Both the position numbers and the translations under genes were made by a program. Positions 10,159 through 38,335 of a stretch of DNA of 41,048 nt are shown here, piece after piece. Location: the IMG/VR virus record IMGVR_UViG_3300033142_000306, positions 1 to 41,048 of that record, one strand, 5' to 3'. Below the pieces are notes generated by a model. It was not told the DNA's origin. It saw only the letters and a list, made by a program, of their open reading frames with translations, and did no database searches. The DNA is from a virus. Position 1 is the stretch's first letter, and every line of letters starts with the position of its first letter.

Positions 10159-13100
10159 TTAAGTACATCTCTGAATACCACTACAATTTAGATCGTATGT
10201 AGTAACACATCCATAAGGAGAAGATGATGAACGAATAGGACCAGTATTATTGCCAGCAATATTAGTATTAACGAGTAAACCAGTACCATTACAAGACCCA
10301 TCACCTATTCCATTTGGAAACCTTCCTTCATGTATAGCAGTTTCGTATATAGTTACAGGTATATCCCATTCATATCTTAAACCAGAACCATTTTTATCTA
10401 TAGCTGCAACTGTCACTACGTATCTACCTGGAGGCATTTTAATTTCTTGACCTCCAACAACACCAGGAACAACTTCCAATAAACCTTTAGCTGCAGACGT
10501 ACCCCATGAGCAATTTCCATTGTTTCTAGCTGCAAAATGAGGTGTGCGTTGTTTCCAATATGATCGACTCCATGCAGCTCTTTGAGAAGTAGAATATGAA
10601 GCATTTAAATTAGGCATCTGTCGTAAAGTCAAAGCTAGACCATTACCATTCTCAACATTAGTACTTGTACCAGTTAACGACCAAGGTCCAGCAGTTCCCC
10701 AAATATTTACTGCATTAATTTCTTGCATTTGGTAATGTTCTACTTGTGCTCCATTTACGATTGAATAATCTAAAGCTGTGTTTGTTGAACTTGGCCATGG
10801 TCCGTATTCTCCATTTGCGCCAGCGTTAGGATCAAAATTACTATTCCCATACTTAAATGGTAATAAAACTTGATCTGCTCCATTTGGGTTATCAGCTCCA
10901 CAAGTGCTATCATACCATATATTATAAGTACCAAAAGCTGCTGCTTCAATATTATCCCAAAAATTAGCAGGAAGAGATGGATCTCCAGCATCTCTTCTCC
11001 TAGTGTAAAACCTCATTTTAGCATCTAGATCTACCCAGTAATGTCTTGGAGCGCTGTCAGTACCAATTGAAGCATTATACTTTTCTCCTACATATTTTTC
11101 TCCATTACCACTAAGACTATTATCTGCTGGATTAGGTATACCCCAATTAGGTTGATAGTCTATATATTGAGGCCCATTTAATATTTGGTCAGCATAATGT
11201 CTTTGATTTGATGGACAGCTATTTGGATCTATTTGAACACGTTGATTCATTCCTAATCTATACTGTATACTTTTATATCCATTACCTGTAGAAGGATCAG
11301 TACCACTAACCATGTTTGCTAAACCAACACCGTTTGCGTCAACAAAAGTGGGTTGTTGCCCAAAAACATATTCTATTTGTGGAGGAGGAACTTGAGAAGA
11401 ATCTTCTGAAGCTGCGTTTTCAGGTCTAACACAAGAGTCAAGCCCATTGTTTCTATCATTATCTGCATTCCATTCTGTTTGATTATAACTTAAAATAGCA
11501 CTTACCTGATAAGCTCTTACAACTTCATATACAATTTCATCACAAACTTGGTAAGAAATAGGTAATGGTGGAACAGGATCAGTCGACCCATAAACACCAT
11601 TTTTCGCTGCAAATTCACCATTCCAAGCAAAGGCTGGATTAAAATTATAACCAGGTGCAGTTAAAACTACTCCTTTACCAGTTTCTCTTTCATATGGATC
11701 TCCATCAGCTAACCAATAATTAACTCCAGTTCCTACATTTGCTTTATCAGAATAAGTAGGGGTATAATATTGGAAAGAGTTTAAGTAGTTGTTTCCTTGG
11801 GTTGGAGGATATAGACATGCTTGTAAATTTGGCATTATTAACTCTCTACATGCTGCGCTTGTTCCACTTGTTCCTGTACCACCAGTGTTTCCATAAGGAT
11901 AAGGGTTTGCAGAAGGAAATAGGAAATTTAAATAATTTAATTCCTTAATTGCTTGACGATCAGGATACATAACCTCATTAGGAACTTCATTTGTCACAAT
12001 ACCGGGTACAACAATAGTAGTGGTAATTGGAAGTCCAGCACCACCGCTTGGGTTTGGTAATACTTGAGTAACTTCAAATATGAACTTTAAGTTTGTTTTG
12101 TTAGGATCTTCATATGCTAACTGATATTGTCCATACGCTTTAGTTAAATAATATCTATTTTTACCTGGAATTCCTGCAGATAGCAATTGAAACTTTTGAG
12201 GTAAAGACACGCTTCCATCTGCGTAAGTCACATTCACTAATTCAATTGTAGCTTGAAAACTAGCGTCATCTAAATCAAGACCATTTGGCCCTTCAGCCCA
12301 AAATATAGCGGAAATAGGAGTAACACCATCAGCATACCCTTCTTCTGGAATTATTATTTGTGCATTAGAAATAGTTTCTGCAAACACTCCATCTTCTGAT
12401 AATACTATCTCTTTATTAAGTTCTGATATTAAACCAGATGTTGTGGTTTCCCAATAAATATCTAATAAAGATTCAATAGGTTTTGTTTCGTAAACTGACA
12501 AAAAAGGTGTCATAGTTTCATCATCCCAAGCACCTGGGTTACCCACTTGTGGTTGACCAATTTGCTTTTGAGTAGAAATTCTAGCAATTAAAGGGTTGCT
12601 ATCACCACTGTACCAGTGAGGAGGAAGTAAAGGATCTAAAGCACCAGCGCCTTCTCTATTGTAGTTTAAATTACTAGTTCCTGCTTGGTCAAAACTTCCT
12701 AAGCTTAACTCTCCCATAGGACCTATAGTAGTAACAGTATCACCAATTATTTCAGGTTGATATTGTTGATTTATATTCATCCATTGGCCTCCATCAGCTT
12801 CTTCTTTCTTATTTTCAACTCTCCCATAAAGAGTAACACTACTTCTAAACTGTTGTTGGTCAGGACCCACTTCTTTAAGATCTCTAGGTACTTTATTAAC
12901 GTTATCATTAATTAGTACTATGTGACATTCTTTTTCTGTTAAACCTGAAGGATATTTTTCTCCCGTAACCAATGGGCTACTTACAGTACCTGTGACGGGA
13001 TCTACTACTAAAGAAGAACCGATAATGTCTCTAGGATAACCAGCTAACATTCCTGGTAAATAGACATTGTAGTATTCTTGTTCTGTTTGTTTAACAACTA

Positions 13101-15387
13101 TTTTATAACTATACCAACCTAGAGGATTGTTTTCTGGACATGATACTTCCATTTGAAAACAACTATTAGGTATAGCAGCGTTATTGCAGAATGGTAGTGC
13201 TAGTGCATTTGCTTTACAAACATCAACAACCTCACCATTTACAAACTTTCCTTCTGTGTTTGTAAATTCAATGCTTTCTAAATTTATCTCTGCTACACCA
13301 CTTCCATTGTCACAGATTTCAAACCTCATTTCAGCACCGTTAATATCTATTATAAAAAAACAACCTGATCCACATGCTGGTACACCTGTAACCCATTCAG
13401 CAGGATCAAAGGATGTAATGTTTTTAACAGAAGCGATAGATCCGTCATTTATACTAAATAAACCTGGATATCCAGCAGCAGTAGATATAGATTTTGGAAT
13501 AGTATTATTAAATAAAGTTATTAACTGATCACCTGGCCAAGTATCATTTGGATCTTGTGCGTCATTTCGGTCTGTAACTAAATAAGCGTTTTTGTCTCTA
13601 TAAGGATGATAAATAGTAGAAGCTTTTCCAAAATCACCATTAGTAACTGCTGATAAAATAACATCTGACTGTCTTCCATATCTATCAGCTAAAACAACCC
13701 CTACTTGGTAAGTTCTATTTTGTTTTAAAGTGTGATTTTGATATTCTTTTCTAACATATTGGTTTAAATTAAATGCTTCACTTGTCTCATCAGGTAAGTT
13801 GATTTTTTCATCAATTATAACGGTATAATCTAAAGGTGGTGGAGAAGTATGTTTATCTAAAAAATTGCCATAGATTATTCTGTTACCAGCACTTTCTTGC
13901 CCTAAAGCTCTTACAGGAACTTTATCATATACTCGAGTTAATTCAGCTGTTGGTAAAGTTTTCCAAGGTTTAGTAGATTGATAATTATAACTAAGGTAAG
14001 AAGTATTATTATCTTTAAAGTAATCAATAGGTAAAGTTTCTATTACTTTTATAGATTGATCATCTGCAGATTTCCACAATATATCAACTTCTACTATCTT
14101 TAACCTGTCATTTACTTCAGACCAAGCCATTAAAGATCCATCTATCTCTAAATCTGTAGGTGCAGGCACAGTTAGTGTGATGTCATTTGCTTTATTTTCC
14201 ATAAATGAAACAACTGTACTTCTGTACGTTTCTGTTTCTTGATCAGGACCAGAATTGTCTATGTTATTGGGATTAATGTTATTTGTGAGAAAATAACCAT
14301 CTTGTTCGGGAACAAAAGCTATTTGAGTAAACGGAGCTATAAGAGAGTATTCTCCATCATCAAATTTAAATCTATAGCTAAATCTTGCAAATTTATCTTT
14401 TAAATAGTCAGGATCTCCAGGCCAACTAGCATTGTAATAAGGATTTCTTCTTTGTACATAAAGAATATCTCCAACGTTTGGAGCATTCAAGCAATTAGCT
14501 AATCCTATAACTGTATCAGACCCAACTATAGAAGCACTTTGAATAACAACTTCAAAAGGAACAGCACCCACGGTAGGTTCTATATTAGGTCCAGTTATTC
14601 TATCAGATTGTGCTAATGCAAAACTAGGATCTAGTGTTTTACCACTACCTATTTCATGAACACCTGAAACTGTTATAAACGTATTACTTGAAGGTGCTTT
14701 TACTTCTAGCAAGCAATGAGGTGGTAACCACTCGCTAACAACATCCTTCATACCACTTTCATATCTATCAAAAGCGCTTGGCGTTGTATTAGGTTCTAAT
14801 AAATAAATAGCTTCATGTGGATAATACTTAGCTACTGAAATTTGATCTTCATTGTAGTAATAACCTTGACTTACACTTGGTACATAAGGTTCATTAATAG
14901 CATTAGAGATATTAATTTTTCTTGGTTGATTTCTATTGTCAGTCCAAAAAAGTAAATCTTCTATTAAATTTATACCATGAATAGGATGTGTTTTAGAAAA
15001 GTTTAAAAATGAACCTCCTACTAATAAACTACCTGTATTGTTTCTTATATCATAATAAGCTATATAAGACTCAACGTTGTTGACAGATGAACCTGTAATG
15101 TTATCTAACCTAGTAGGAGAACTATCACTATAGTTTGTTAAAAATACAATAATTCTATCATTAGCAACATCCATATAATGACCAATAGCTTTTAGATTGC
15201 AATCTGTTAAACCAAAATCAGTTATCTCTAAATTACCTAAAACTGTTTCTAACGCTCCTACGTCTGCAGATTCTGATCTGCTTATACTTACGTTTAATCC
15301 ACTTCTATATTGACCATTAGGAATAATTCTAGCGTCCAAGTCTTGGTTCATCTTGGACTGAATAAATGTATTCTTACTTTCTGCCAT
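10159..15387 (-). CDS. Very large tail nozzle/muzzle-like structural protein
   Basis: The product has 1742 residues. The N-terminus (NQDLDARIIPNGQYRSGLNV, then SRSESADVGALETVLGN) is the start typical of large nozzle or stabilisation proteins in marine phages. It is followed by beta-rich sequence with many aromatic and Gly/Pro/Asn turns. Residues about 1650-1690 (PPGRYVVTVAAIDKNGSGL, EWDIPVTIYE) look like an Ig/PKD-type sandwich. The last 40 residues are Ser/Asn/Cys-rich. It is far longer than T7 gp12 (about 800 residues), and the following 314- and 285-residue ORFs seem to extend the same structure. Likely role: the lower tail, where fibres attach and DNA exits. No enzyme motif was found, but a hydrolase domain in so long a protein could be missed. 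Confidence 0.75.
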   Translation of the reverse strand: MAESKNTFIQSKMNQDLDARIIPNGQYRSGLNVSISRSESADVGALETVLGNLEITDFGLTDCNLKAIGHYMDVANDRIIVFLTNYSDSSPTRLDNITGSSVNNVESYIAYYDIRNNTGSLLVGGSFLNFSKTHPIHGINLIEDLLFWTDNRNQPRKINISNAINEPYVPSVSQGYYYNEDQISVAKYYPHEAIYLLEPNTTPSAFDRYESGMKDVVSEWLPPHCLLEVKAPSSNTFITVSGVHEIGSGKTLDPSFALAQSDRITGPNIEPTVGAVPFEVVIQSASIVGSDTVIGLANCLNAPNVGDILYVQRRNPYYNASWPGDPDYLKDKFARFSYRFKFDDGEYSLIAPFTQIAFVPEQDGYFLTNNINPNNIDNSGPDQETETYRSTVVSFMENKANDITLTVPAPTDLEIDGSLMAWSEVNDRLKIVEVDILWKSADDQSIKVIETLPIDYFKDNNTSYLSYNYQSTKPWKTLPTAELTRVYDKVPVRALGQESAGNRIIYGNFLDKHTSPPPLDYTVIIDEKINLPDETSEAFNLNQYVRKEYQNHTLKQNRTYQVGVVLADRYGRQSDVILSAVTNGDFGKASTIYHPYRDKNAYLVTDRNDAQDPNDTWPGDQLITLFNNTIPKSISTAAGYPGLFSINDGSIASVKNITSFDPAEWVTGVPACGSGCFFIIDINGAEMRFEICDNGSGVAEINLESIEFTNTEGKFVNGEVVDVCKANALALPFCNNAAIPNSCFQMEVSCPENNPLGWYSYKIVVKQTEQEYYNVYLPGMLAGYPRDIIGSSLVVDPVTGTVSSPLVTGEKYPSGLTEKECHIVLINDNVNKVPRDLKEVGPDQQQFRSSVTLYGRVENKKEEADGGQWMNINQQYQPEIIGDTVTTIGPMGELSLGSFDQAGTSNLNYNREGAGALDPLLPPHWYSGDSNPLIARISTQKQIGQPQVGNPGAWDDETMTPFLSVYETKPIESLLDIYWETTTSGLISELNKEIVLSEDGVFAETISNAQIIIPEEGYADGVTPISAIFWAEGPNGLDLDDASFQATIELVNVTYADGSVSLPQKFQLLSAGIPGKNRYYLTKAYGQYQLAYEDPNKTNLKFIFEVTQVLPNPSGGAGLPITTTIVVPGIVTNEVPNEVMYPDRQAIKELNYLNFLFPSANPYPYGNTGGTGTSGTSAACRELIMPNLQACLYPPTQGNNYLNSFQYYTPTYSDKANVGTGVNYWLADGDPYERETGKGVVLTAPGYNFNPAFAWNGEFAAKNGVYGSTDPVPPLPISYQVCDEIVYEVVRAYQVSAILSYNQTEWNADNDRNNGLDSCVRPENAASEDSSQVPPPQIEYVFGQQPTFVDANGVGLANMVSGTDPSTGNGYKSIQYRLGMNQRVQIDPNSCPSNQRHYADQILNGPQYIDYQPNWGIPNPADNSLSGNGEKYVGEKYNASIGTDSAPRHYWVDLDAKMRFYTRRRDAGDPSLPANFWDNIEAAAFGTYNIWYDSTCGADNPNGADQVLLPFKYGNSNFDPNAGANGEYGPWPSSTNTALDYSIVNGAQVEHYQMQEINAVNIWGTAGPWSLTGTSTNVENGNGLALTLRQMPNLNASYSTSQRAAWSRSYWKQRTPHFAARNNGNCSWGTSAAKGLLEVVPGVVGGQEIKMPPGRYVVTVAAIDKNGSGLRYEWDIPVTIYETAIHEGRFPNGIGDGSCNGTGLLVNTNIAGNNTGPIRSSSSPYGCVTTYDLNCSGIQRCT

Positions 15388-18750: not shown

Positions 18751-20190
18751 TTAATCTGTAAATAATACAAAATTGTTAGCAGCTTGAACACAAAGACATC
18801 TCTCTGACAAGTAGTGTACTTCCATCGCATCTAAATCAGAAGTGTAAGCACCTCCAACTGAACCAGTGATCCAAGATTTCATTCTTCTATCATCTGTTTC
18901 TGAAGCTCTGTATCGTACGTGTAAGAAAGGACGTCTGATGTTTTGACCCATCATTTGATCGTAAACAGTTGAAGTACCAGCAGGTATCATAACACCTTTG
19001 ATATTGTCAACCATTCCTCTAGTAGAAGCATCGTTTAGATATTTCCAATCAGTTTTGTAGAAGTCATAAGAACCTCTTCTAAACCCAGAGAAACCAAAGT
19101 TTAAAGCCATTTCATTTGAATTATCAAATAGACCATAAGAAGCAGAAGCAACTGAAGAATAACCTCCACCAGCTTGAGCACCGATCATATCATCAAAATC
19201 AAGAGCAGTAGCTCTATCTAAGAAAAGCATGTTTTCTTCAATAGCACCTTGCTTATCTAATTGCTGTAAGATTGTATCAAAATCTCCTAATGCACCAGCT
19301 CCAGGAGCAGCAGCACCAGCAAATCCAGCATACACATTACCTCTCTCTTCGATAGCAGAGAACATACCTTGCGTACCATATGAAGTTTGATTGTTAGCAA
19401 GAGCAGCAACATCTGAACCAACAGTAGCAATTTCACCTTCAACACAAACCATTTCAAGATAATCTTCATATCTCAATCTAGTTTCTGATTCAGCTTTCAT
19501 GTACCATAAGAACCCAGTTGTTCCATCTTCTGTTGCAACTTCTACCCAACCAATTTGAGCAGTGTCAGATCCAGATACTTCGTAACGATCTTTAATGATT
19601 GTTGGTTTATTAGAGAACTGAGTGAAAGCAGGCTCTACAGCTCCTAGCATTCCATTTGTTCCTTTACCAAAATCAGATCCATAAACAAATAATCTGTTTC
19701 CTGTAGCAGCTAAACCACCCCAACCAGCTTGTGTATAACAAGCAGCTGTGAAGTTTGTAGCACCAGCATTAACAGCTGTAACTTGACCTTTTAAAGTTAC
19801 TCCTGTAAGAGGGTTATAAGCAACAATAGTGTTACCAACTCTTACTGCGTGAGATGGAGTACCAGCAGGAAGTACAGGTGTAAATACACCAGCAGCTTCA
19901 GCTACGTCATCATAAGCAATATGTAATCTATTTTGTTCAGACCAGATTACTTGATCTGATGTCATCGGCATTTCAGCCCCGACCATTCTTAAGAAACCAG
20001 AGATAGTTCTGTTACCAAATCTCTCTACTTCTTGTTCATAAAGTTCAGGTAGATATTGTTGAGCAAAATCAGCAAAGTCCAAGAAGCCAGGAGCACCAGC
20101 TCCAGCATCTGTCCATTGTAGATAATTGCTTGTTAAAGCTACCCTGTCTGGATACGGTTGTAATCCAGCATTCATGTTTGTAAACGCCAT
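18751..20190 (-). CDS. Major capsid protein
   Basis: The product has 479 residues, without long disordered stretches. The N-terminal arm is followed by FADFAQQYLPELYEQEVERF, typical of the start of HK97-fold capsid proteins in crAss-like phages. The C-terminal part has FGFSGFRRGSYDFYKTDWKY, MIPAGTSTVYDQMMGQNIRR and PFLHVRYRASETDDRR, ending CVQAANNFVLF, which I associate with that capsid group. Residues about 110-200 look like a beta-rich insertion domain. The preceding gene is scaffold-like and the next is decoration-like, the standard order. The leader is A/T-rich with no Shine-Dalgarno sequence. Confident as capsid; the exact family is from memory. Confidence 0.88.
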   Translation of the reverse strand: MAFTNMNAGLQPYPDRVALTSNYLQWTDAGAGAPGFLDFADFAQQYLPELYEQEVERFGNRTISGFLRMVGAEMPMTSDQVIWSEQNRLHIAYDDVAEAAGVFTPVLPAGTPSHAVRVGNTIVAYNPLTGVTLKGQVTAVNAGATNFTAACYTQAGWGGLAATGNRLFVYGSDFGKGTNGMLGAVEPAFTQFSNKPTIIKDRYEVSGSDTAQIGWVEVATEDGTTGFLWYMKAESETRLRYEDYLEMVCVEGEIATVGSDVAALANNQTSYGTQGMFSAIEERGNVYAGFAGAAAPGAGALGDFDTILQQLDKQGAIEENMLFLDRATALDFDDMIGAQAGGGYSSVASASYGLFDNSNEMALNFGFSGFRRGSYDFYKTDWKYLNDASTRGMVDNIKGVMIPAGTSTVYDQMMGQNIRRPFLHVRYRASETDDRRMKSWITGSVGGAYTSDLDAMEVHYLSERCLCVQAANNFVLFTD

Positions 20191-21405: not shown

Positions 21406-23784
21406 TTATATCCCAAAATTTAAGTCATTAATGGGAGTTTCAAAGTTTTGTGGTAAACCATTGTTTTGGCTTTGGTTTATCAATTGACTTTGTTGAGTAG
21501 CTTCTTGTTTGCTTCTGGTATCTTTACGATCTTCTATCATAACTTCCTTTTGCACTGTTGCACCCATTTTTTGTTTTTCAAGTTGCATATCAAATGCAAA
21601 TTGTACTTCTTTTAATTGCTTATCTATTTCCGCTTTGATCTCCATCTTCTGGATTTCAAATTGACTTTTAGCTTGTTCAAACTGTATATTAGTTTGAGAT
21701 AATGCTTGTTGTTTCTGTACTTCAAACATAGCTTCTTGTTCTCTAGATTTAGTTTGAGCTTCGGCTTGAGCTTTAATATTAGCTTGCTGTGCCTCTTGAT
21801 CTTCTTTAAGCTTTTGTTTTCTTCTTAATTTTAATAATTGATTAGCTAATTTTAGATTTTTAATTTCTCTAATATCAATAGCATCAGCTAAGTCAATTGT
21901 TTTTTGTTGAAGTGCCATTTGAATATTAGCTTCCAATTGTGCTTTTGCTTCTTCATCGGGTTCTAATTCTAAATATATCCCAAAATCAAATAAGTTTAAA
22001 TCTTCCAACTCTTCTAACGTAGCTGTGTTATACATGCTAACACTGTTAACTAGTGCTTCTCTAGTAAGTGGAAAATCAAGCGTATCTGCAATTCTTAATG
22101 ATATATTTTCACACGCTCTCAGTGTTAAGAATAAGCTAGCAGCTAGAATATGTCTTGTAGCAACGTTTGATTGAGCAGCAGCTAATTTTTGTAAACCTAC
22201 TAGAGAATTAGGATCAGGATTACTTGCATCTCTTGCCTCATTCAAACCTGTTGTATCTCTAATCATTTGTAGATAATACTGATACGTTGTTATTAAAGAT
22301 TGTATTTTAGCTTGAGCAGCTGATGTCTGTAGCTCTTGTATAGGTACTTTACCTATATTCTGATCACCATCCTGAGTCATAGATCTACCAACAATACTAC
22401 CAGTTTGAAAATACATGTTCAAAGCTTCTTGAGGATTGTAGTTTGTTCCATTGCCTAAATCTACTTCTGCTAAACCATCTACATCTACAAATACACCATC
22501 AGGTACCATCCTAGAAAGAACTTGCTGCATTTTTAACGATGTAAGTTGTATCATATCTGCAAAACCAATCATTCTTTCAACTAAAGAGTTAATGCCACCT
22601 TTATATAAACTTGGAGCACATATTTGATAGTTCATGTTTACTTTAGTCAAGTTTGAAAATGGACGAGTCATATTCTCTGCAATCTCCCATTTTAACATTA
22701 TAGGATGTCCTAATATCTTAACGCCATGATATAATACCTCTATCGATCTACTTACTCTTTCAAAGTTATCATTAGGCGGTGGATTAAATTCGTCAGTTTT
22801 TTCTAATGCTTTCTCTAAACCTTGATCAGTTTGTTTTATTTTAAAGACTTGATCAGCAAATGTTTTATACTCAAAATATAATACTTGAACTGTGTTATTA
22901 TTATTTTTTCCCTCCCAATTCCTAGTATAGTTTGTGTTACCAGGCATTTTTTGAATTTCTTCCAATTGAACAGTGGTAAGACCAGGAAATTGTTTCTTAA
23001 GTTCTGGAATACTTAAAGACTTAACTTCTCCTACATAGTATATGTCTTGAAAATTAGGATCGTCAGTATATGACCAAACTAGATTAGCTGGGTCTACGTA
23101 TTCGACTGTAATGCCATTAGACTTGTTATAATTAGTTTTAACAGCGCCTATACCTAATGTAACTAAATCTTTATTTACTCTTCTTCTAACTAGATCATAT
23201 TTATTTCTAGCTAATACATTGGTGATAGCTTCTTCCTCTGCAATTTCGATAGACTGTTTGTAATCTAGTTGCATATGAATCTCTAACTCTTGTTCGGTTT
23301 GAGGAATACCTTCACCTTTAATAGTATTTAAATCAACTCCTAAAGCTTGCTTTACTTTTTCTATATATTCTCTAGTTTTTATCTGCTTGTGCAAAGCCTC
23401 AGCATATTCAGTTCTTAGTTTTTGAGAAGCAGGATCTTGAGCATAAGCTTTAATATCATATAACTTATTAGACATACCATTTACTACGATATCCACAAAC
23501 TTTGGTATTATAGGAACTGGTTTCCAGTCTAAATTCAAATAAGATAAATCACCATTAATAGACATTTCATCTTTGTACTTTTGAACAGGTTGTTCGGCTC
23601 TAGCGTATAATCTTCTATTAAAAAATATATTATAATTATTTTGGTATCTATACCCACCATATGCCTGACTCCACCATTCTCCTTCAATAGCTTGTGCTAC
23701 TCTTAGGCCATATTCTAAACTCATTTTTTCTGCTTCAGGTACTACCTGATCAGGAAATGAACTTCTTGTATTAGTGTAAATCAT
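21406..23784 (-). CDS. Portal protein
   Basis: The product has 792 residues. The first 530 carry mixed alpha/beta portal-type sequence (PIIPKFVDIVVNGMSNKLYD, DLVTLGIGAVKTNYNKSNGI, VEYVDPANLVWSYTDDP). The segment DPNSLVGLQKLAAAQSNVAT and RHILAASLFLTL fits the helical wing/crown of crAss-like portals. Residues about 600-770 are a long Gln/Glu/Lys coiled coil (EEAKAQLEANIQMALQQK), longer than in T7-type portals. Its ATG overlaps the terminase stop as ATGA, so the two are translationally coupled. The dodecameric portal is the DNA gate and terminase dock. Confidence 0.88.
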   Translation of the reverse strand: MIYTNTRSSFPDQVVPEAEKMSLEYGLRVAQAIEGEWWSQAYGGYRYQNNYNIFFNRRLYARAEQPVQKYKDEMSINGDLSYLNLDWKPVPIIPKFVDIVVNGMSNKLYDIKAYAQDPASQKLRTEYAEALHKQIKTREYIEKVKQALGVDLNTIKGEGIPQTEQELEIHMQLDYKQSIEIAEEEAITNVLARNKYDLVRRRVNKDLVTLGIGAVKTNYNKSNGITVEYVDPANLVWSYTDDPNFQDIYYVGEVKSLSIPELKKQFPGLTTVQLEEIQKMPGNTNYTRNWEGKNNNNTVQVLYFEYKTFADQVFKIKQTDQGLEKALEKTDEFNPPPNDNFERVSRSIEVLYHGVKILGHPIMLKWEIAENMTRPFSNLTKVNMNYQICAPSLYKGGINSLVERMIGFADMIQLTSLKMQQVLSRMVPDGVFVDVDGLAEVDLGNGTNYNPQEALNMYFQTGSIVGRSMTQDGDQNIGKVPIQELQTSAAQAKIQSLITTYQYYLQMIRDTTGLNEARDASNPDPNSLVGLQKLAAAQSNVATRHILAASLFLTLRACENISLRIADTLDFPLTREALVNSVSMYNTATLEELEDLNLFDFGIYLELEPDEEAKAQLEANIQMALQQKTIDLADAIDIREIKNLKLANQLLKLRRKQKLKEDQEAQQANIKAQAEAQTKSREQEAMFEVQKQQALSQTNIQFEQAKSQFEIQKMEIKAEIDKQLKEVQFAFDMQLEKQKMGATVQKEVMIEDRKDTRSKQEATQQSQLINQSQNNGLPQNFETPINDLNFGI

Positions 23785-26012
23785 TTATTAATTATTTTAG
23801 AATTTAAACCTTCGTTGTTGTATTTTTTAATTCCTAGATACATGCTCTTTAATTGTCTTTTTGCTACAGGATGATACTTGTTTCTGTTACAAGCCATAAT
23901 GGCTAAACCAGAACTTATTGACGCATCATGCTTAGTTCTATTATTTATATTAAATTTTGCCCAATCTTCTAACGTTTCTTGAAAATACATATCACCTGCT
24001 TGACCATCAGGATCTAAGCCAACATAATCTTCTATGTAAGACTCTATAGCAGCTGCATGAGCTTGTTTCATATCTTCACTGGAGTTGGGTACTCCACCTA
24101 TTTCTCTTTCTGTAACTGATAACTTGTTGTAGAGTTTATCAGGTCTATTTATCGAAAACAATCTGTAACCACGTCTTTTTAAATAATACAGTAATCTTGG
24201 CTTGTTATTTTCTGCTAATAATGGCATTCCATAAAAATGTAAAGCCATCAATATATCTTCAAAGAAAATATCTGCCGTTTGAGGTCTAGCTATATATTGA
24301 AGAAAAAAACTATGAGATGGAGCGTCTTCTAAATTAAACTTAGTTAACCCATGTAAAGATCCATTAGAACCCTTACCATCTACAGTACCTGATATATCAT
24401 AGCTATCACAGCCAAAAGCTCCAACGTGCTCATTACCAGGAAATTTCCCTCCATTCTTTATTATCACATTGTTTTGAAGATGTTTAGGTGGAATCCAAGA
24501 AACCTTAAATCTTCCCTGTTTATTTGGAGTAAATATTACTTTTGTATCTTTAACTCCATTTTCCCACATGAAACTACCTTGTGTAACATTTGCGAGATTA
24601 TTTAAATCTTCGTTGTTATCAATTTGCTCATATATTTTAACTAAGTTAAATAGTGATTCCTTAGTCTCATCTCTAAAAGCATGCTTTTCTGTACGTGGAA
24701 ATTGTCTGTAATATTCATTTAATCCATCTTGGTCTTCCTTTAATCCTTCTACTTCGTTTTCCCAATGTTCTATTACTCCAATTTCAATGTAATTACCATC
24801 TATACCTAATGTAGGTTTATCTGGCGTCTCAAACACGGGGTATCCATAACGGTCTATAAAACCTTCAAAATTCCATTCCATTGGAATAAATAAAGAATAT
24901 AACCCTTCTTTAGTTTGACCGTTCCTGTTTCTTTGTAAACAATTAGATCCACTATATATATCTTTAAAATTTTGTCCTCCTTTATCAAGAGCATTAGAAG
25001 TAGAACCCATCATGCATTTGCCAATAATTCTACTACCTAATCGTAAACAAGTTTTAGTTACTTTCCAGTTGTTCTTTATGTTATCAGGTCTTTCCCATTT
25101 ACCACTTTCATCATGGCCTAATAGTTTTAGTTTTTCACCATCATAACTATTATCTCCTGTATTTTTCCAATCTATAGTAGTGTCTAATCCATCTAATTCT
25201 CTAAGCTCTTCATTAACTTCCAGCTTTCTACGTGTGAGTTTAGATGCCGGAACCCTATATGCCAATTCGGTTTTAGGGCGATCCATACCATCTTGGATTG
25301 GTTTGAAGAAAAACGGATAATTAATCGAGATTGGTACAACTTTATCTGTGAACATTTTTTTAGCATCTGCACCAGTTTTAGATAGAATCCCGTATCTACT
25401 GTCGGATGATATGGTTGCTTGATTAACCAGTTCAGCTGAACACATGAATGAAAAACCGGATCGTCTGTTTTTAAGATAACACATTCCATAAGCTCGGGCG
25501 TCAGCTTTACAAGCTTCCCAGAATATAAAGAATAGTCTATTTGCCTCTCTGTAGTCAGGTGCTCCAACGTCAATTTTTGACCATTGCAAGTACATGTAAT
25601 GAGTACCAGTAATATAAGTAGGATTGCCATTATTAAAAAACCAAAATCCCTCGTCTCTTCTTCTAAATTCTTCATCTATATAATCCCACCATTTACCTCT
25701 AAACTCTTCAGGATATTTCTCCCAGTCAAATCTACTCTTTATTCTCTTTAGTTCTTTCGGGTATTCAAATTGTTCCCAGTACTGCTCCTCTTTATCTTCG
25801 CTTCGTTTAAATGGTTCATTAACTTCTGGTAATGCAATGCGGAGATTTTGTATCTCAATGATCTGTCCAATTTTTCCAGTTTTACTTATTACAATAAAAT
25901 CGTAGTCTTTGTTATAACCATAATCCCATTTTTTTAACTTGTTTTGTTTTTTAAGTATTTTGGGATTAACAACGTCTTTTAATTCTGTCCATAAGGTTTG
26001 CTTGTAACTCAT
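23781..26012 (-). CDS. terL: Terminase large subunit
   Basis: The product has 743 residues. An ATPase motif KNRRSGFS lies at residues 181-188. It lacks the usual GKT/S but matches the deviant Walker A of the lambda gpA type, where the lysine comes first. PTYITGTHYMYLQWSKIDVG and YREANRLFFIFWEACK precede it, as in crAss-like and marine phage terminases. The nuclease half starts about residue 530, with FGCDSYDISG (first acidic residue D536), and ends with HDASISSGLAIMACNRNKY, where the last metal-binding Asp is expected. It is coupled at both ends by ATGA overlaps. It packages DNA with the portal and cuts it to unit or headful length. Confidence 0.9.
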   Translation of the reverse strand: MSYKQTLWTELKDVVNPKILKKQNKLKKWDYGYNKDYDFIVISKTGKIGQIIEIQNLRIALPEVNEPFKRSEDKEEQYWEQFEYPKELKRIKSRFDWEKYPEEFRGKWWDYIDEEFRRRDEGFWFFNNGNPTYITGTHYMYLQWSKIDVGAPDYREANRLFFIFWEACKADARAYGMCYLKNRRSGFSFMCSAELVNQATISSDSRYGILSKTGADAKKMFTDKVVPISINYPFFFKPIQDGMDRPKTELAYRVPASKLTRRKLEVNEELRELDGLDTTIDWKNTGDNSYDGEKLKLLGHDESGKWERPDNIKNNWKVTKTCLRLGSRIIGKCMMGSTSNALDKGGQNFKDIYSGSNCLQRNRNGQTKEGLYSLFIPMEWNFEGFIDRYGYPVFETPDKPTLGIDGNYIEIGVIEHWENEVEGLKEDQDGLNEYYRQFPRTEKHAFRDETKESLFNLVKIYEQIDNNEDLNNLANVTQGSFMWENGVKDTKVIFTPNKQGRFKVSWIPPKHLQNNVIIKNGGKFPGNEHVGAFGCDSYDISGTVDGKGSNGSLHGLTKFNLEDAPSHSFFLQYIARPQTADIFFEDILMALHFYGMPLLAENNKPRLLYYLKRRGYRLFSINRPDKLYNKLSVTEREIGGVPNSSEDMKQAHAAAIESYIEDYVGLDPDGQAGDMYFQETLEDWAKFNINNRTKHDASISSGLAIMACNRNKYHPVAKRQLKSMYLGIKKYNNEGLNSKIINK

Positions 26013-26290
26013 TTACTTCTCCCTTCTGCAAAGCCCTTAAATTTTCTAACTGGTTTTTCGTCTACGTTTTTTGGCTTTTCTTTTAACATTTCTTCTTCTT
26101 CTTGAATTCTTTGTAGAATTTCAAAAGCATCGAATATAGCAAGTTTTTTAGTGGCAGCTGCGTTTTTCAGTCTGTCCGCAGACACATCCTCCCCTGTATC
26201 TACAATTTCTTCTTTTGCTACTTTTATCAGTTCCTTCACCGCTTCGTGTCCAGCTTGGATTATATATTTCTTCGTCTCCTTTATGTTCAT
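26009..26290 (-). CDS. Small terminase subunit-like protein
   Basis: The product has 93 residues and is almost wholly helical. The core reads AGHEAVKELIKVAKEEIVDT, then DVSADRLKNAAATKKLAIFD and AFEILQRIQEEEEML, with a basic end (KFKGFAEGRSK). The location immediately before terL, coupled by ATGA, and the helical oligomer-like pattern fit a small terminase or terminase-associated DNA-binding subunit. It is shorter than most TerS proteins (about 150 residues), and no helix-turn-helix is obvious. The first 143 bases lie inside the upstream gene in another frame. Confidence 0.6.
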   Translation of the reverse strand: MNIKETKKYIIQAGHEAVKELIKVAKEEIVDTGEDVSADRLKNAAATKKLAIFDAFEILQRIQEEEEMLKEKPKNVDEKPVRKFKGFAEGRSK

Positions 26291-26837
26291 GCTTTATAAT
26301 AATATCTTTAGATTTCATACAATATAATAATTCATTATCTATTATAAATTCAAATTCTCGTTCAGGTTTAAACGAAACAACGTCTCCTTTCCAAATATCT
26401 ATTTCATTTAACAAAGTATTGTTATACTTAACAATACCTTTTTGTTTTATAGTTTTATCTAGGTTAGTTTCATCTTTACTTTTTAAAGGTGTAATAAAAC
26501 ATCTTTCTCCAAAACACTTCCATTCATCTTGCTTATATAAGTAAACCTGATCCATACTGCAGAAGTATAGATCTTCTTTAAAGTAAGATCTACTATTTCT
26601 TTCTTTCTCCTTAACATCGTACCATCTTCTAAAGATGTTGTGGTGTACTCTAACTCTGTCTCCTTTTTTAATAGGTTGTTTAAAAGCTAATGGTACACTT
26701 ACTACTACAGCTTCCGTACTGATGGCTTTAAAGTTTTCAATACTAGTGTTAACTATTAGTTCTTTATCACCAAACTTTTTAACGTTATTATACCTACTTT
26801 CTACAGGGGTTATTATAAAGTCATATAAACTATTCAC
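26148..26837 (-). CDS. Tandem GroES-fold / gp31-like co-chaperonin candidate
   Basis: The product has 229 residues. Residues 8-118 follow the GroES/gp31 pattern: a conserved turn VVVSVPLAFKQPIKKGDRVR, then VHHNIFRRWYD, a divergent loop, and YLYKQDEWKCFGERCFITPL. A second, shorter repeat at residues about 130-182 has KGIVKYNN, KGDVVSF and FIIDNELLYCMKSKDIII, echoing the end of GroES (lY.i...DI). Phage gp31 replaces host GroES to fold large capsid proteins. The last 48 residues are read over the next gene and look like accidental coding (RRNCRYRGGCVCGQTEKRSC). Call by eye; a fold search is needed to settle it. Confidence 0.5.
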   Translation of the reverse strand: MNSLYDFIITPVESRYNNVKKFGDKELIVNTSIENFKAISTEAVVVSVPLAFKQPIKKGDRVRVHHNIFRRWYDVKEKERNSRSYFKEDLYFCSMDQVYLYKQDEWKCFGERCFITPLKSKDETNLDKTIKQKGIVKYNNTLLNEIDIWKGDVVSFKPEREFEFIIDNELLYCMKSKDIIIKHEHKGDEEIYNPSWTRSGEGTDKSSKRRNCRYRGGCVCGQTEKRSCH

Positions 26838-33379: not shown

Positions 33380-33827
33380 ATCCTCGTTTTTTATCTTTGT
33401 TTAAATTAGTTATGGAAGTGGATAAAGCCTTTTCACTATAACTAGATCTGTTCATAATTGAATTAGCTCTAGTAGTTTCAGGAATATCCTCCTCCCCTAA
33501 CATTATACGGTACATCCGAGAAATTAGCTGTTTACACTTGAAAGAAACTTTATATATATGATACTTCTGAGTGGTGCGGTTTCTTGCGCGCCATACCACT
33601 ATCCATCCCTCCTTCAGTAATCTGTTCCAGCGTCTGTTGTCCCAGCTATATGCGTGTGTACCGGTTTTAAAATCTTGTTTAGTAAATAAATCTATTGCAT
33701 CTAAATAAATTAACAGCTCGAGATCTGCTTCTTTAAGATCACTTGTTTTTGCTGCCCATTTACGTATTATTCTATAATGCTTAAGTAAGTTGAGATCTTT
33801 AAGATCTGATGAGGTTAATTTCCTCAT
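33369..33827 (-). CDS. Winged-helix (MarR-like) DNA-binding candidate
   Basis: The product has 152 residues. A helical start (LLKHYRIIRKWAAKTSDLKE) is followed by ADLELLIYLDAIDLFTKQDF, RRWNRLLKEGWIVVWRARNR and YHIYKVSFKCKQLISRMYRI, then LGEEDIP and a Ser/Asn-rich basic tail. The helix, helix, L..GWI, strand, wing order fits a winged helix-turn-helix like MarR. I recall this style in marine phages beside structural genes. It overlaps groES by ATGA. It could regulate late genes or act as a structural DNA-contact protein. Confidence 0.6.
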   Translation of the reverse strand: MRKLTSSDLKDLNLLKHYRIIRKWAAKTSDLKEADLELLIYLDAIDLFTKQDFKTGTHAYSWDNRRWNRLLKEGWIVVWRARNRTTQKYHIYKVSFKCKQLISRMYRIMLGEEDIPETTRANSIMNRSSYSEKALSTSITNLNKDKKRGYVN

Positions 33828-34084
33828 AATACTACAACTATATCATTTTCTTTTATTATTGTATATAATTCTTTTTCAACTTCTAGTTTAAAACCAGCAT
33901 GCTTATCAAAATATATTATATCTCCTTTTTTAACTGCATTGACATCGTTTCCAGGTATAACTATCGTACCTTCCTTATACCTCACGTCTTCTCTATGTTT
34001 TTCTCCTAAAAACAAACCTGACTTAGTGGTTGTTGATTTATCTACAGTTTCTTTTATTACTATATTTTTACCTATTACTTTCAT
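33824..34084 (-). CDS. groES: Phage co-chaperonin GroES (Cpn10)
   Basis: The product has 86 residues against 97 in E. coli. It starts MKVIGKNIVIKETVDKSTTT, close to the family opening. The mobile loop (KSTTTKSGLFLGEK) carries LFL where E. coli has the GroEL-binding IVL. EGTIVIPGNDVNAVKKGDII, YFDKHAGFKLEVEKELYTII and KENDIVVVL match the beta-barrel and closing strand. The roof-loop region is shortened. It is read after groEL and overlaps it by 17 bases, the opposite of the bacterial groES-groEL order. It should cap the phage GroEL and possibly host GroEL. Confidence 0.9.
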   Translation of the reverse strand: MKVIGKNIVIKETVDKSTTTKSGLFLGEKHREDVRYKEGTIVIPGNDVNAVKKGDIIYFDKHAGFKLEVEKELYTIIKENDIVVVL

Positions 34085-35621
34085 GTGTTCTTAAATTATT
34101 AATTACACAATCAGTTGAAAGTATTGTTGTAGCTACTGAAGCCGCGTTTGTTAAAGCGCTTTTAGTTACCAATAGTGGATCAATTATCCCTGCTTTCACC
34201 ATATTTACCTCTTTTCCTGTAACCACGTCTAATCCTATATTTTTGTTTTCAGGATAAACTATATCAAGACCTGCATTTGTTAAAATTGTTTCGTAAGGTG
34301 CTTTAATTGCTTTAAATAAAACTTTTTCTCCCTCGTTTTTTGGATCCAATACAACAGCTGCATTAAGCAAAGCTATTCCACCACCTGGAACTATTCCTTC
34401 TTTAATCGCGGCTTTTGTAGCACATATCGCATCTTCTACCCTATCTTTTTTCTCTTGAAGTTCTACCTCTGAATTTGCTCCTACTTTCACAATAGCCATT
34501 TTAGCTAATAATCTAGCTAATCTTTTTTCATATCTTATCTTGTAGTTAGGATTTGAAGTGTTTTTAATTTTATCCTTTATCTCATTAACTACTTCATTAA
34601 TTTCCTCTGGAATTTCTTTTACCTGTATTAAAGTTTCTGTAGGTGTACTAACAGCTTTAGCGCATTTACCAAAATGTTCTGGTTGAATTAAATCCATGTC
34701 GTCTCCTAAATCCTCATTAATTAAAGTAGCTCCAGTAAGTAAACAAAGATCATCTAATATATCTTTTCTATTAACACCATAAATTGGAGGTTCAATTAAA
34801 TTTAATCTAAAATTACCTTTTATTTTATTCATGGCTAAAGCTTGTTTTACTTGCAAATCAACTTCAGCAATTAATAATAATGGAACTTTCTCATCCATTA
34901 TAAATTTCAAAGCAGGTTCTAACTTCCTAATATTATCTATTTTATTATCTACAACTAATACTAAGCAATTTTCTAGTTCTGCTGTATTAGAACCTTTGTT
35001 AGTTACAAAATGAGGAGAACTAAATCCCTTTTCATATTGTATACCTTCTATCTTCTCAACCACTGTTTCTGGACTATCATTTATCTCCATAGATACGATT
35101 CCAGTTTCATCTACCGCTTCAAAGGCCTCAGCTATTATGTCGCCTAACTCTTTATCGTTATTTGCTGAAATAGTTGCCACTTGTTTTATTCTATTCCCAG
35201 TTACAGGTTTAGATATTTTATTTAAGTATTTTACAACTTTATCAACTGCTTCATTTATTCCTATTCTTAAATCTCTGCGAGATTCCGATTTTATCACTTT
35301 ATATGCCTCTGTCAATATGGCGTGTGCTAAAACCGTGGCAGTTGTAGTTCCATCTCCAGCTTCTCTCACTGTTTTTCTTGCTGCTTCCTTAAGCAATTTA
35401 GACCCCATGTTTTCTACTGGATCTAACAATATAACTGTATCAGCTACTGTAACACCATCTTTAGTAATTTGAGGGTTTCCTGCACTATCTTCTAATATAA
35501 CACATTTACCACTAGCTCCTAAAGTTGAACTTACAGCTTTAGTAAGTTTTTCTATACCTTCAAAAACTTTATCTCTAGCATCTTCACCGAAGTTTAAATG
35601 CTTAACTATTGTTTCATTCAT
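34068..35621 (-). CDS. groEL: Phage chaperonin GroEL (Cpn60)
   Basis: The product has 517 residues against about 548 in E. coli. Residues 50-62 (QITKDGVTVADTV) hold the conserved D55, residues 89-96 are GDGTTTAT with D90, and D397 (DRVEDAICATKAAI) matches the ATP-hydrolysing D398. GIVPGGGIALLNAA follows. The end, SVATTILSTDCVINN, then LRTHESNR, lacks the GGM tail. It folds large proteins in an ATP-driven cage; a capsid or tail substrate is likely for a virus that brings its own. It stands first after a hairpin, followed by its co-chaperonin. A TATAAT-like hexamer at 35658-35663 is only weak promoter evidence. Confidence 0.93.
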   Translation of the reverse strand: MNETIVKHLNFGEDARDKVFEGIEKLTKAVSSTLGASGKCVILEDSAGNPQITKDGVTVADTVILLDPVENMGSKLLKEAARKTVREAGDGTTTATVLAHAILTEAYKVIKSESRRDLRIGINEAVDKVVKYLNKISKPVTGNRIKQVATISANNDKELGDIIAEAFEAVDETGIVSMEINDSPETVVEKIEGIQYEKGFSSPHFVTNKGSNTAELENCLVLVVDNKIDNIRKLEPALKFIMDEKVPLLLIAEVDLQVKQALAMNKIKGNFRLNLIEPPIYGVNRKDILDDLCLLTGATLINEDLGDDMDLIQPEHFGKCAKAVSTPTETLIQVKEIPEEINEVVNEIKDKIKNTSNPNYKIRYEKRLARLLAKMAIVKVGANSEVELQEKKDRVEDAICATKAAIKEGIVPGGGIALLNAAVVLDPKNEGEKVLFKAIKAPYETILTNAGLDIVYPENKNIGLDVVTGKEVNMVKAGIIDPLLVTKSALTNAASVATTILSTDCVINNLRTHESNR

Positions 35622-35689: not shown

Positions 35690-35709
35690 TCCCCTGCCGA
35701 AGCAGGGGA
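35690..35709 (-). terminator. UUCG hairpin between the Cys-rich gene and groEL
   Basis: Leftward RNA folds as TCCCCTGC-UUCG-GCAGGGGA, an 8-pair stem with the extra-stable cUUCGg loop. It begins 8 bases after the Cys-rich gene's stop codon. The leftward tail is poor in U, while the rightward tail is ATTTTTAATT, so leftward it may be a pause, processing or 3'-end-protecting hairpin, or an inefficient terminator. Confidence 0.6.
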
Positions 35710-35716
35710 TTTTTAA

Positions 35717-38335
35717 TTATATGAATACACAATTTGCATCTGCGCAATCGTCTACTGTATTTATTATTACTCCTGTTGGTGGGAGGCAACTAGGTATTTC
35801 TGGATTAAGTTCATAACAGCAATCTATTAAACTTGATAAATCTTTAGCATGTACAAAATCATGAGTTGCTGGAGACCATCCAGGTACTAATGATACATCT
35901 ATTAATAGACTACTAGAAGCAGCTGCATTACAAGTGTCACCTGCCGCATCTTCACAAATAGTGTATATCCTTAATTCTTGCTCACAACATTCACAAGAGG
36001 TTAGAGGTGCAACACCTGCTACAGGACCAGTCCAGGTTTGTATACCGGCTTGTGTTGCTGGGCCAGGAGCGTTAATGTTAATAACTGTCCAACATTTAGC
36101 TAAACCAGATAAAGTTCCACCTGTTACTTCGATAACATCACTTGCTATTAAACCGCCTCCTGATGGACCTAAATCTGTTAAAGCAACTGTTTCAGTGTAC
36201 GCTCCATCACAACTTTGTAATTGAACAAAAGTTTGACAAGCTGGATCTGCACACCCTGTAGATATCTCTATATCATTTATACCTGGTGTTACTGCGTCAT
36301 TAGTACATTCTGTAAATTCATAACAAATAAAGATACCAGGCGCTGCTGTAGGTTCTATTCTAATTAAAGGATCTATACCTAACTCATTCATGTTAGCCCA
36401 AGCAGATGGATCTACAACTATTGTTTCTTCTGAAGAACAACGTGTGTACTTTCTGTTTGGTCCTGCTATACAGCAATTACAATCAACATCTGGAGTGTCA
36501 TAAGCTATATACCCTGGTCCAAGTTCTACTTGTGGTCCTGCTAATACCGAAGGATTTTCTAATACCTCGTAGCAAGTACCTGATTGTTTAATTATTTGAC
36601 CAACCACCCAAATTTCAGAACCTGGAGTACCACTTGAAGATACCCATTTATCTCCTGTAGGATCATCACAGTTGTCATATTTTATATATGTATCTGGAGT
36701 AGCCTCTTCGCAATCTTGACAACTAGTCCAGCTGGGATCAAAGCTTAAATCTTCGTAACCTCTACCTGCTGCAGTCAATGTTTCTTCAGCACATGGTAAT
36801 TCTTCACTCTTTTCATAACAACATAAAGTTCCGTCACCTAGATCTATTTTTATAAAATCAGGTGCACTAGATGGTTTCCAACTTTCACCAATTTCATTCC
36901 CCCATGCACATACATCAATATTTATTTCGGGATTTCCTTCAACAAAACATCTTTCGTCACATCTAATGTAAGTTGCTACATCGTAATAAGTACAACAATC
37001 GCAACTAACAGGTGATCCAGAATAAGCGGTATCACATGATACTCCACCTATAAATACTGACCAAGCTGTCTCAGGTTCTACTAACATAGTTGTTTCAACT
37101 TCTATACAACATTGACCATCTATACAATTAGAGTTAGTGTCTGCTCCGTCTAAATCCCCTATGTAATGATTTCCTGGAGTGTTAAATGGTGCTGGTATTG
37201 GATCTAATGCACTTTCGTACAGCCAGTTTTCAGAACTACAATTTTTCCATCTTAAGTTTGATTCAGGATTACACATTGGATCTTCGCAACTACTTGCTAC
37301 AATTATATCAACAGGAAGTGCAGGTTCTAAACAAACTTTAACAAGTGTATAGCAATAGCTTTCACCTTCGAAAGTTACGTTAACTACATCACCATCATTT
37401 ATTTCTACACAAGCACCACTATCACTTGGTGCTACTACTGTACCAACTAAAGGATCATGCGCTACAGGTGGAGTACCTGGACATGGTGTTAACGTAAATG
37501 AACAATCATAAACACAACATTCACAACCACAATCATCTAAAGGTAAACTTTTTATACTATTCAATATTGGTGTGCTACCGTCATCAGTACCTTCCAAAGT
37601 TAACTTTATACAATTAATAGTTGTTCCACCACTAAATTGACCAAACTCGCAATCATTGTCTATAGCACTCTCCCATCCAGCTGGTCCAGATATATTACTT
37701 TGTAAAGCTTCAAATAAAATTTCACCATTTTCACAATTTCTACCACGAACTACAGGATCTTCAGGTGGTGTATCACAGCATTCGTCACAATCTGCAATAG
37801 CTGTAGGTACTGGTGCCCATATATCAGCATACCAGCAAGTTCTTACTTCCCCATCACCTACTGGATAAGTTACGGGAGAACCGTTATTTTCTAACGAAAC
37901 ATAACCAGGAACCATACTTGCAAAAGATGTTTCACATGTAAATATCCACTCTGCTGAATTTTCTTCAATTGTACAAATAGCTTGGCCTGTCTCCGTATTG
38001 CAGCTAACAGGTTTAAGGACGTAAGTGGTGGGACAACCACCAGGTCCACTTGATTCGCACTTTAAATCTATTGTATTTCCAGCATTTGTTATAGTAACAC
38101 TTGCATCTGACGATGTTAGTGTTAATTCGTCATCACAGCCGATCGCCTGTGCAGGTATTCCTGATGAGGTTCGTATATACCTAAAACTATGGTCACAAGA
38201 AGTTTCATCACAAAACTCACATATACCTGCAAGGGTAATAAGTCTTGTAGAGTTCTTATTCTTAGTCTCAGATACTACAATTAACTCCGTACCATCTGGA
38301 TTTGTAACCGGTGGGTAGGTATATATTATTGCCAT
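35717..38335 (-). CDS. Cysteine-rich repeat fibre-like virion protein
   Basis: The product has 872 residues with about 65 cysteines. The N-terminus (MAIIYTYPPVTNPDGTELIV, SETKNKNSTRLITLAGI) is the short adaptor type of phage fibres. After it come roughly nine diverged modules, many ending in CxCC or CECC (DECCDT, CGCECC, SCDCC, CNCC, SCECC) with an internal CY[ETK] strand and a CxxPxC-like pair (CADPAC, CEDPMC). Modules with a Y...C/CY[TE]V/sCeC layout occur in marine phage fibres. I infer a surface fibre, perhaps stabilised by disulphides or metal. It has no signal peptide, membrane span or enzyme motif. Confidence 0.72.
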   Translation of the reverse strand: MAIIYTYPPVTNPDGTELIVVSETKNKNSTRLITLAGICEFCDETSCDHSFRYIRTSSGIPAQAIGCDDELTLTSSDASVTITNAGNTIDLKCESSGPGGCPTTYVLKPVSCNTETGQAICTIEENSAEWIFTCETSFASMVPGYVSLENNGSPVTYPVGDGEVRTCWYADIWAPVPTAIADCDECCDTPPEDPVVRGRNCENGEILFEALQSNISGPAGWESAIDNDCEFGQFSGGTTINCIKLTLEGTDDGSTPILNSIKSLPLDDCGCECCVYDCSFTLTPCPGTPPVAHDPLVGTVVAPSDSGACVEINDGDVVNVTFEGESYCYTLVKVCLEPALPVDIIVASSCEDPMCNPESNLRWKNCSSENWLYESALDPIPAPFNTPGNHYIGDLDGADTNSNCIDGQCCIEVETTMLVEPETAWSVFIGGVSCDTAYSGSPVSCDCCTYYDVATYIRCDERCFVEGNPEINIDVCAWGNEIGESWKPSSAPDFIKIDLGDGTLCCYEKSEELPCAEETLTAAGRGYEDLSFDPSWTSCQDCEEATPDTYIKYDNCDDPTGDKWVSSSGTPGSEIWVVGQIIKQSGTCYEVLENPSVLAGPQVELGPGYIAYDTPDVDCNCCIAGPNRKYTRCSSEETIVVDPSAWANMNELGIDPLIRIEPTAAPGIFICYEFTECTNDAVTPGINDIEISTGCADPACQTFVQLQSCDGAYTETVALTDLGPSGGGLIASDVIEVTGGTLSGLAKCWTVININAPGPATQAGIQTWTGPVAGVAPLTSCECCEQELRIYTICEDAAGDTCNAAASSSLLIDVSLVPGWSPATHDFVHAKDLSSLIDCCYELNPEIPSCLPPTGVIINTVDDCADANCVFI

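Follow-up and report, generated by a model that had tools for sequence, protein, structure and literature searches.

A 41,048-base virus record (IMGVR_UViG_3300033142_000306), analyzed over its whole length and referred to here as the window, carries adjacent groEL and groES genes. The locus raises the question of whether this pair was taken from a host operon or belongs to a folding machine of the phage's own. The window derives from a tailed, marine-type bacteriophage similar in kind to those of Flavobacterium, Cellulophaga, and Maribacter, and all of its large genes lie on the minus strand. The gene groEL (34068..35621, minus strand) encodes a group I chaperonin large subunit of 517 aa without a Gly-Met tail (PF00118, 2e-58; phrog_5725, 1.5e-135). 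It is transcribed ahead of groES (33824..34084, minus strand), which encodes a single Cpn10 domain of 86 aa (PF00166, 7e-12; phrog_3188, 6e-14), and the two reading frames share 17 bases (34068-34084). Coordinates, strand, groEL-first order, and overlap had all been given exactly in the original prediction for this locus. Neither gene is a chance open reading frame, because both match Pfam and PHROG families.

The PF00118 match covered 487 of 490 profile positions, i.e. a full-length Cpn60 fold with a group I profile. The best matches among solved structures were group I GroELs, and the AF2 model had a pLDDT of 86. Three aspartates, D55 (codon 35457..35459), D90 (35352..35354), and D397 (34431..34433, all minus strand), aligned to E. 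coli D52, D87, and D398 and were invariant wherever the column was present in an alignment of 80 viral relatives; D495, R395, and D155 were likewise invariant among these relatives. The aspartates had been predicted to be kept, and careful alignment revealed no loss of ATPase residues. As also predicted, the protein lacked the GGM repeats, which are common in group I chaperonins but not essential, and ended in ...NNLRTHESNR. In the apical groove, L234 was replaced by Q or E and I270 by N in nearly all clade members when compared with the bacterial pattern, an alteration that, judged from the residues, would fit a private partner. An equatorial stretch (34248..34355, minus strand) was about 13 aa shorter and, by alignment, spanned the positions of E434 and E461-V464, through which the two rings touch in E. 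coli. The distance from GGG to DP was 68 aa in the window with a clade median of 69, as compared with 80-83 aa in bacteria. The deletion of about 13 aa was specific to the window's own subclade, and ctfjg026 and elemo did not have much of it. By analogy with the SR1 mutant, it suggests weak or absent contact with a second ring, so that GroEL might behave as a single ring; the ring state is uncertain because the segments for inter-ring contact are deleted.

GroES met the Cpn10 profile, and its mobile loop reads GLFL. The tripeptide LFL (residues 24-26; 34007..34015, minus strand) aligned at the place of E. coli IVL. The replacement had been pointed out beforehand, correctly as to position, but the idea that it is unusual was ruled out, because the clade consensus is GGLLL or GGLIL and LFL is ordinary variation within it. 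A second feature was the deletion of the E. coli roof hairpin (33932..33955, minus strand), which the alignment showed throughout the clade. Both genes were under purifying selection, with dN/dS values of 0.03-0.10 for groEL and 0.05-0.17 for groES.

The origin of the pair was addressed with gene order, tails, and phylogeny. All 80 fetched IMG/VR relatives carried both subunits, had groES downstream of groEL with mostly overlapping reading frames, and lacked the GGM tail. Because, in addition, 287 phage records matched GroEL, the earlier statement that few phages carry both subunits did not hold. Chromosomal bacterial controls gave the opposite picture: groES came first in 33 of 34, in agreement with the order predicted for bacterial operons, and 30 of 34 had Gly/Met-rich tails. 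In a GroEL tree (81 rows, LG+C20, quick search), the window grouped with elemo, ctfjg026, Panino, and environmental phages in a purely viral clade (SH-aLRT 96), and not deep inside a bacterial clade with intact GGM homologues. Bacteroidota and the remaining bacteria were separated from this clade, as were immuto and phi38:1, phages in which groES comes first; several cultured phages were on long branches, and their exact placement is uncertain. The nearest genuine bacterial GroEL was about 43% identical to that of the window. Bacterial matches at 45-64% identity were rejected as cellular relatives, since they were groEL-first and tail-less and fell inside the viral clade. They came mostly from short contigs of metagenome-assembled bins of unrelated phyla and are likely phage contigs in these bins. 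The bins concerned are bacterial and archaeal ones of GTDB, among them Aliivibrio, Chloroflexi, and Woesearchaeota, and the presence of phage groEL-groES contigs in them is probably a binning error.

Recent capture of a host operon that acts as a stress or metabolic booster would account for the adjacency of both subunits and for the ordinary arrangement of domains in this group I chaperonin. It is highly improbable given a viral clade that excludes all sampled bacterial GroELs and an order and tail pattern opposite to that of bacteria; at present sampling, tree and controls together ruled it out. Viral gene order has reportedly been linked to GroEL phylogeny by Marine et al. in 2017 in the ISME J. 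For marine Bacteroidetes phages, GroEL has been reported from 36 of 78 genomes (PMC5332604). Because both the link between order and phylogeny and the chaperonins of marine Bacteroidetes phages were already published, the pair itself is not new: it adds a further member to a clade of viral chaperonins that virioplankton studies had already brought to light. Likewise, the reversed order and the missing GGM repeats are not the surprising part, since the whole clade shares them and features of this kind had been described before.

The pair had further been placed among structural genes. It was found outside the head genes, in a long minus-strand block, presumably expressed late, between an 872-aa Cys-rich gene on one side and lysis genes on the other. 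The repetitive 872-aa protein (35717-38335, minus strand) lies directly upstream of groEL, and Pfam and PHROG searches gave no match for it. A perfect GC-rich hairpin (35690..35709) separates the two genes, but its T-run occurs only on the plus strand, and an intrinsic terminator before groEL on the minus strand was thus unsupported; a simple pattern search detected no Bacteroidetes-type promoter upstream of groEL. Elsewhere in the window, a 1742-aa protein (10159-15387, minus strand) gave a Pfam match to the crAssvirus muzzle protein (7e-10), which links the phage to crAss-like podoviruses. The head and packaging genes comprise a portal protein (21406..23784, minus strand; phrog_6547, 3e-141), the large terminase subunit TerL (23781..26012, minus strand; phrog_6681, 8.6e-169), and a 479-aa virion protein (18751..20190, minus strand; phrog_13704, 4.6e-94). 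The last is presumed to be the major capsid protein, the gene order being as in phi38:1, and is a candidate client of the chaperonin.

Among these head genes lies a chaperonin gene that had been missed before (26148..26837, minus strand). It starts with GTG, encodes 229 aa, and matched phrog_13932 'co-chaperonin GroES' (2e-25). Its 184-aa core (26285-26837, minus strand) was predicted to contain two domains. Using hhalign, the C-terminal half aligned to GroES with a probability of 95 and the N-terminal half with a probability of 80; Cpn10 homology of the N-domain was weak by sequence. An AlphaFold model built from 58 window and IMG/VR sequences reached a pLDDT of 88.7 and a pTM of 0.82. With this model, the top Foldseek match in the PDB was Chlamydomonas chloroplast Cpn20 (7ekq_R, E 1.2e-5), which covered both domains, followed by GroES/Cpn10 proteins including gp31. 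The TM score was 0.55 over 211 columns for Cpn20 versus about 0.3 for any single GroES, and the model thus places the two domains next to each other in much the way that Cpn20 does. The BFVD model of the phi18:3 'Chaperonin cpn10' agreed independently with our model (TM 0.82). A phmmer search with the tandem protein against PDB sequences gave no match; within the PDB, only the fold comparison revealed relatives. On the basis of the models, the reading frame encodes two Cpn10 domains head-to-tail, of the Cpn20 type.

In the N-domain, a mobile-loop-like hairpin carries the motif LIV (26751..26759, minus strand) at the site that the tripeptide occupies in GroES. The loop sequence is GDKELIVNT in the window, and relatives have LIL/LIV/LVL-N, with L27 nearly invariant and N30 invariant among the 58 aligned sequences; in position and character, the motif resembles the GLIL/GLLL of GroES. 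The C-domain loop contained no recognisable hydrophobic tripeptide, and only half of the tandem domains could therefore serve as anchors. With dN/dS values of 0.07-0.12, the gene was under purifying selection.

A scan identified at least 594 tandem-related IMG/VR stretches. TerL followed downstream on the same strand in all 80 fetched tandem loci, as a rule about 265 bases further on. The small open reading frame in between (26009..26290, minus strand), at the position of a small terminase subunit, had a homologue at 80 of 80 loci. The tandem gene was present in 21 of 21 groEL contigs of at least 38 kb. When 30 contigs were tested, 27 had both groEL and the single Cpn10, and the other three, fragments of 32-35 kb, had neither. 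Scans with the tandem sequences of phi19:3, Panino, and phi38:1 added few new contigs. In phi38:1, Panino, elemo, and ctfjg026, the single and the tandem Cpn10 occur together with groEL. Cellulophaga phage phi19:3 (complete, Pachyviridae) has a single and a tandem Cpn10 (NC_021789 32116-32370 and 45084-45686) and no groEL, immuto has groEL and groES without the tandem, and Tenacibaculum phage Gundel_1 has none of the three. Not every phage GroEL needs the tandem, as evident from immuto; together with phi19:3 it shows that the tandem goes with the head module and the single Cpn10 and not strictly with groEL. With TerL removed, tandem divergence correlated with that of GroEL (partial r 0.66), while the correlation with TerL, given GroEL, was -0.16; both values come from 26 genomes sharing ancestry, and for this reason the co-divergence is suggestive only.

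A GroES-fold structural or packaging protein devoid of chaperonin function would explain the fixed place between head-module genes adjoining the terminase as well as the weak N-domain match. This is rather improbable, because the LIV/LIL hairpin is family-wide, the overall arrangement is like that of Cpn20, and divergence tracks GroEL and not TerL. We consider instead, and hold to be fairly probable, that GroEL, GroES, and the tandem Cpn10 are a functional, divergent group I chaperonin set that folds virion proteins. The private folding machine of the original prediction thus stands as the best reading, supported by the ATPase residues, purifying selection, the altered groove, and the viral clade, while its capsid or tail substrate is suggested by location, by the tandem fixed beside the terminase, and by analogy with T4 gp31 and gp23.

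According to this proposal, the three genes would act as one set within the late gene block. GroEL would bind and hydrolyze ATP and capture unfolded late phage proteins, its clients probably including the capsid protein of about 53 kDa. ATP would drive binding of a lid made of GroES and/or the tandem Cpn10 via the LFL and LIV mobile-loop anchors. The chamber might be slightly larger and more open for want of GGM tails and the GroES roof hairpin, comparable to T4 gp31/gp23. Like the GroES of the window, gp31 is a phage Cpn10 without the roof hairpin and is linked to head-protein folding; it works, however, on host GroEL, whereas the window phage itself encodes a GroEL, along with two co-chaperonins. 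In gp31, the absence of the roof loops widens the lid opening and makes the chamber 8% larger (PMC6318259). T4 gp23 has about 56 kDa (PMC6318259), and the 479-aa protein is close to it in size. For phi38:1, GroEL and a putative capsid protein were reported by proteomics of infected cells and free-virion samples (PMC13288928).

Alternatively, the chaperonin could be a general aid to the infected cell, e.g. in cold or stress folding, and not a virion-assembly machine. In its favor, the clients are putative and the groE pair is located away from the head genes. We judge this unlikely, since the genes for lysis, head, and packaging are in one block with the pair and on the same strand, the pair's tandem partner lies within the head module, and the lid adaptations are like those of gp31, which serves the capsid protein (PMC6318259).

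If the set folds virion proteins, the composition of the lid has to be considered. The most economical lid would combine three tandem proteins and one GroES, i.e. seven domains, a count deduced here by analogy with the chloroplast, where Cpn20 and Cpn10 form hetero-oligomers thought to meet the seven-fold symmetry (PMC5780408). That such a mixed lid evolved independently outside plastids and folds head proteins on phage or host GroEL is a tentative idea, which we hold to be somewhat unlikely. On the same footing, i.e. conceivable and somewhat doubtful, the tandem alone may be a gp31-like lid for head proteins on host or phage GroEL, with GroES serving the phage GroEL and no mixed lid being formed. 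Its constant position beside the terminase agrees with this, phi19:3 implies that the tandem can use host GroEL, and six- or eight-domain lids work on seven-fold GroEL (PMC5780408). On the other hand, phi19:3 and four other complete or near-complete tandem-bearing phages examined all keep the single Cpn10, an even number of domains mismatches seven-fold symmetry, and the C-domain has no anchor motif.

Comparison with known systems places the set as follows. The marine Bacteroidetes phages elemo, ctfjg026, Panino, and phi38:1 likewise have a group I GroEL with a single Cpn10 nearby and a tandem Cpn10 beside TerL. Elemo, whose GroEL is about 39% identical to that of the window, and ctfjg026 are groEL-first like the window, whereas phi38:1 has groES first. 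The chloroplast Cpn20/Cpn10 lid (7ekq) also pairs two head-to-tail Cpn10 domains with a separate single-domain Cpn10; the window tandem differs in being viral, in a C-domain without the anchor tripeptide, in a sequence identity of only about 13%, and in being known from genes and models. Jumbo phages (phi-EL gp146, OBP, AR9) also encode a Cpn60, possibly with weak ring-ring contacts as well. The phi-EL chaperonin is about 26% identical to the window GroEL and does not interact with a GroES (PMC7185714), whereas the window has a GroES in the same cassette.

'Chaperonin cpn10' is listed as a core gene of Pervagoviridae (PMC8776804). In the open literature, to which the search was confined, we found no account of the two-domain organization of its product or of phages that carry lids of both kinds. 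What is new about the tandem Cpn10 is its architecture, the gene being already known by name, and genes filed as 'chaperonin cpn10' or 'hypothetical protein' are predicted to encode a plastid-like double lid in the IMG/VR stretches counted above. If it is a real lid, Cellulophaga phages phi38:1 (with phage GroEL) and phi19:3 (without) offer a simple, cultured test system in which to study the reason for a separate lid in the head module, the fit of a lid of even domain number on a chamber of seven-fold symmetry, and a possible adaptation of lids to capsid proteins as clients. Finally, the tandem tail (GDEEIYNPSW...; 26148-26290, minus strand) overlaps the next open reading frame by 143 bases in another frame; because the tail motif recurs in relatives, either frame could be constrained there.
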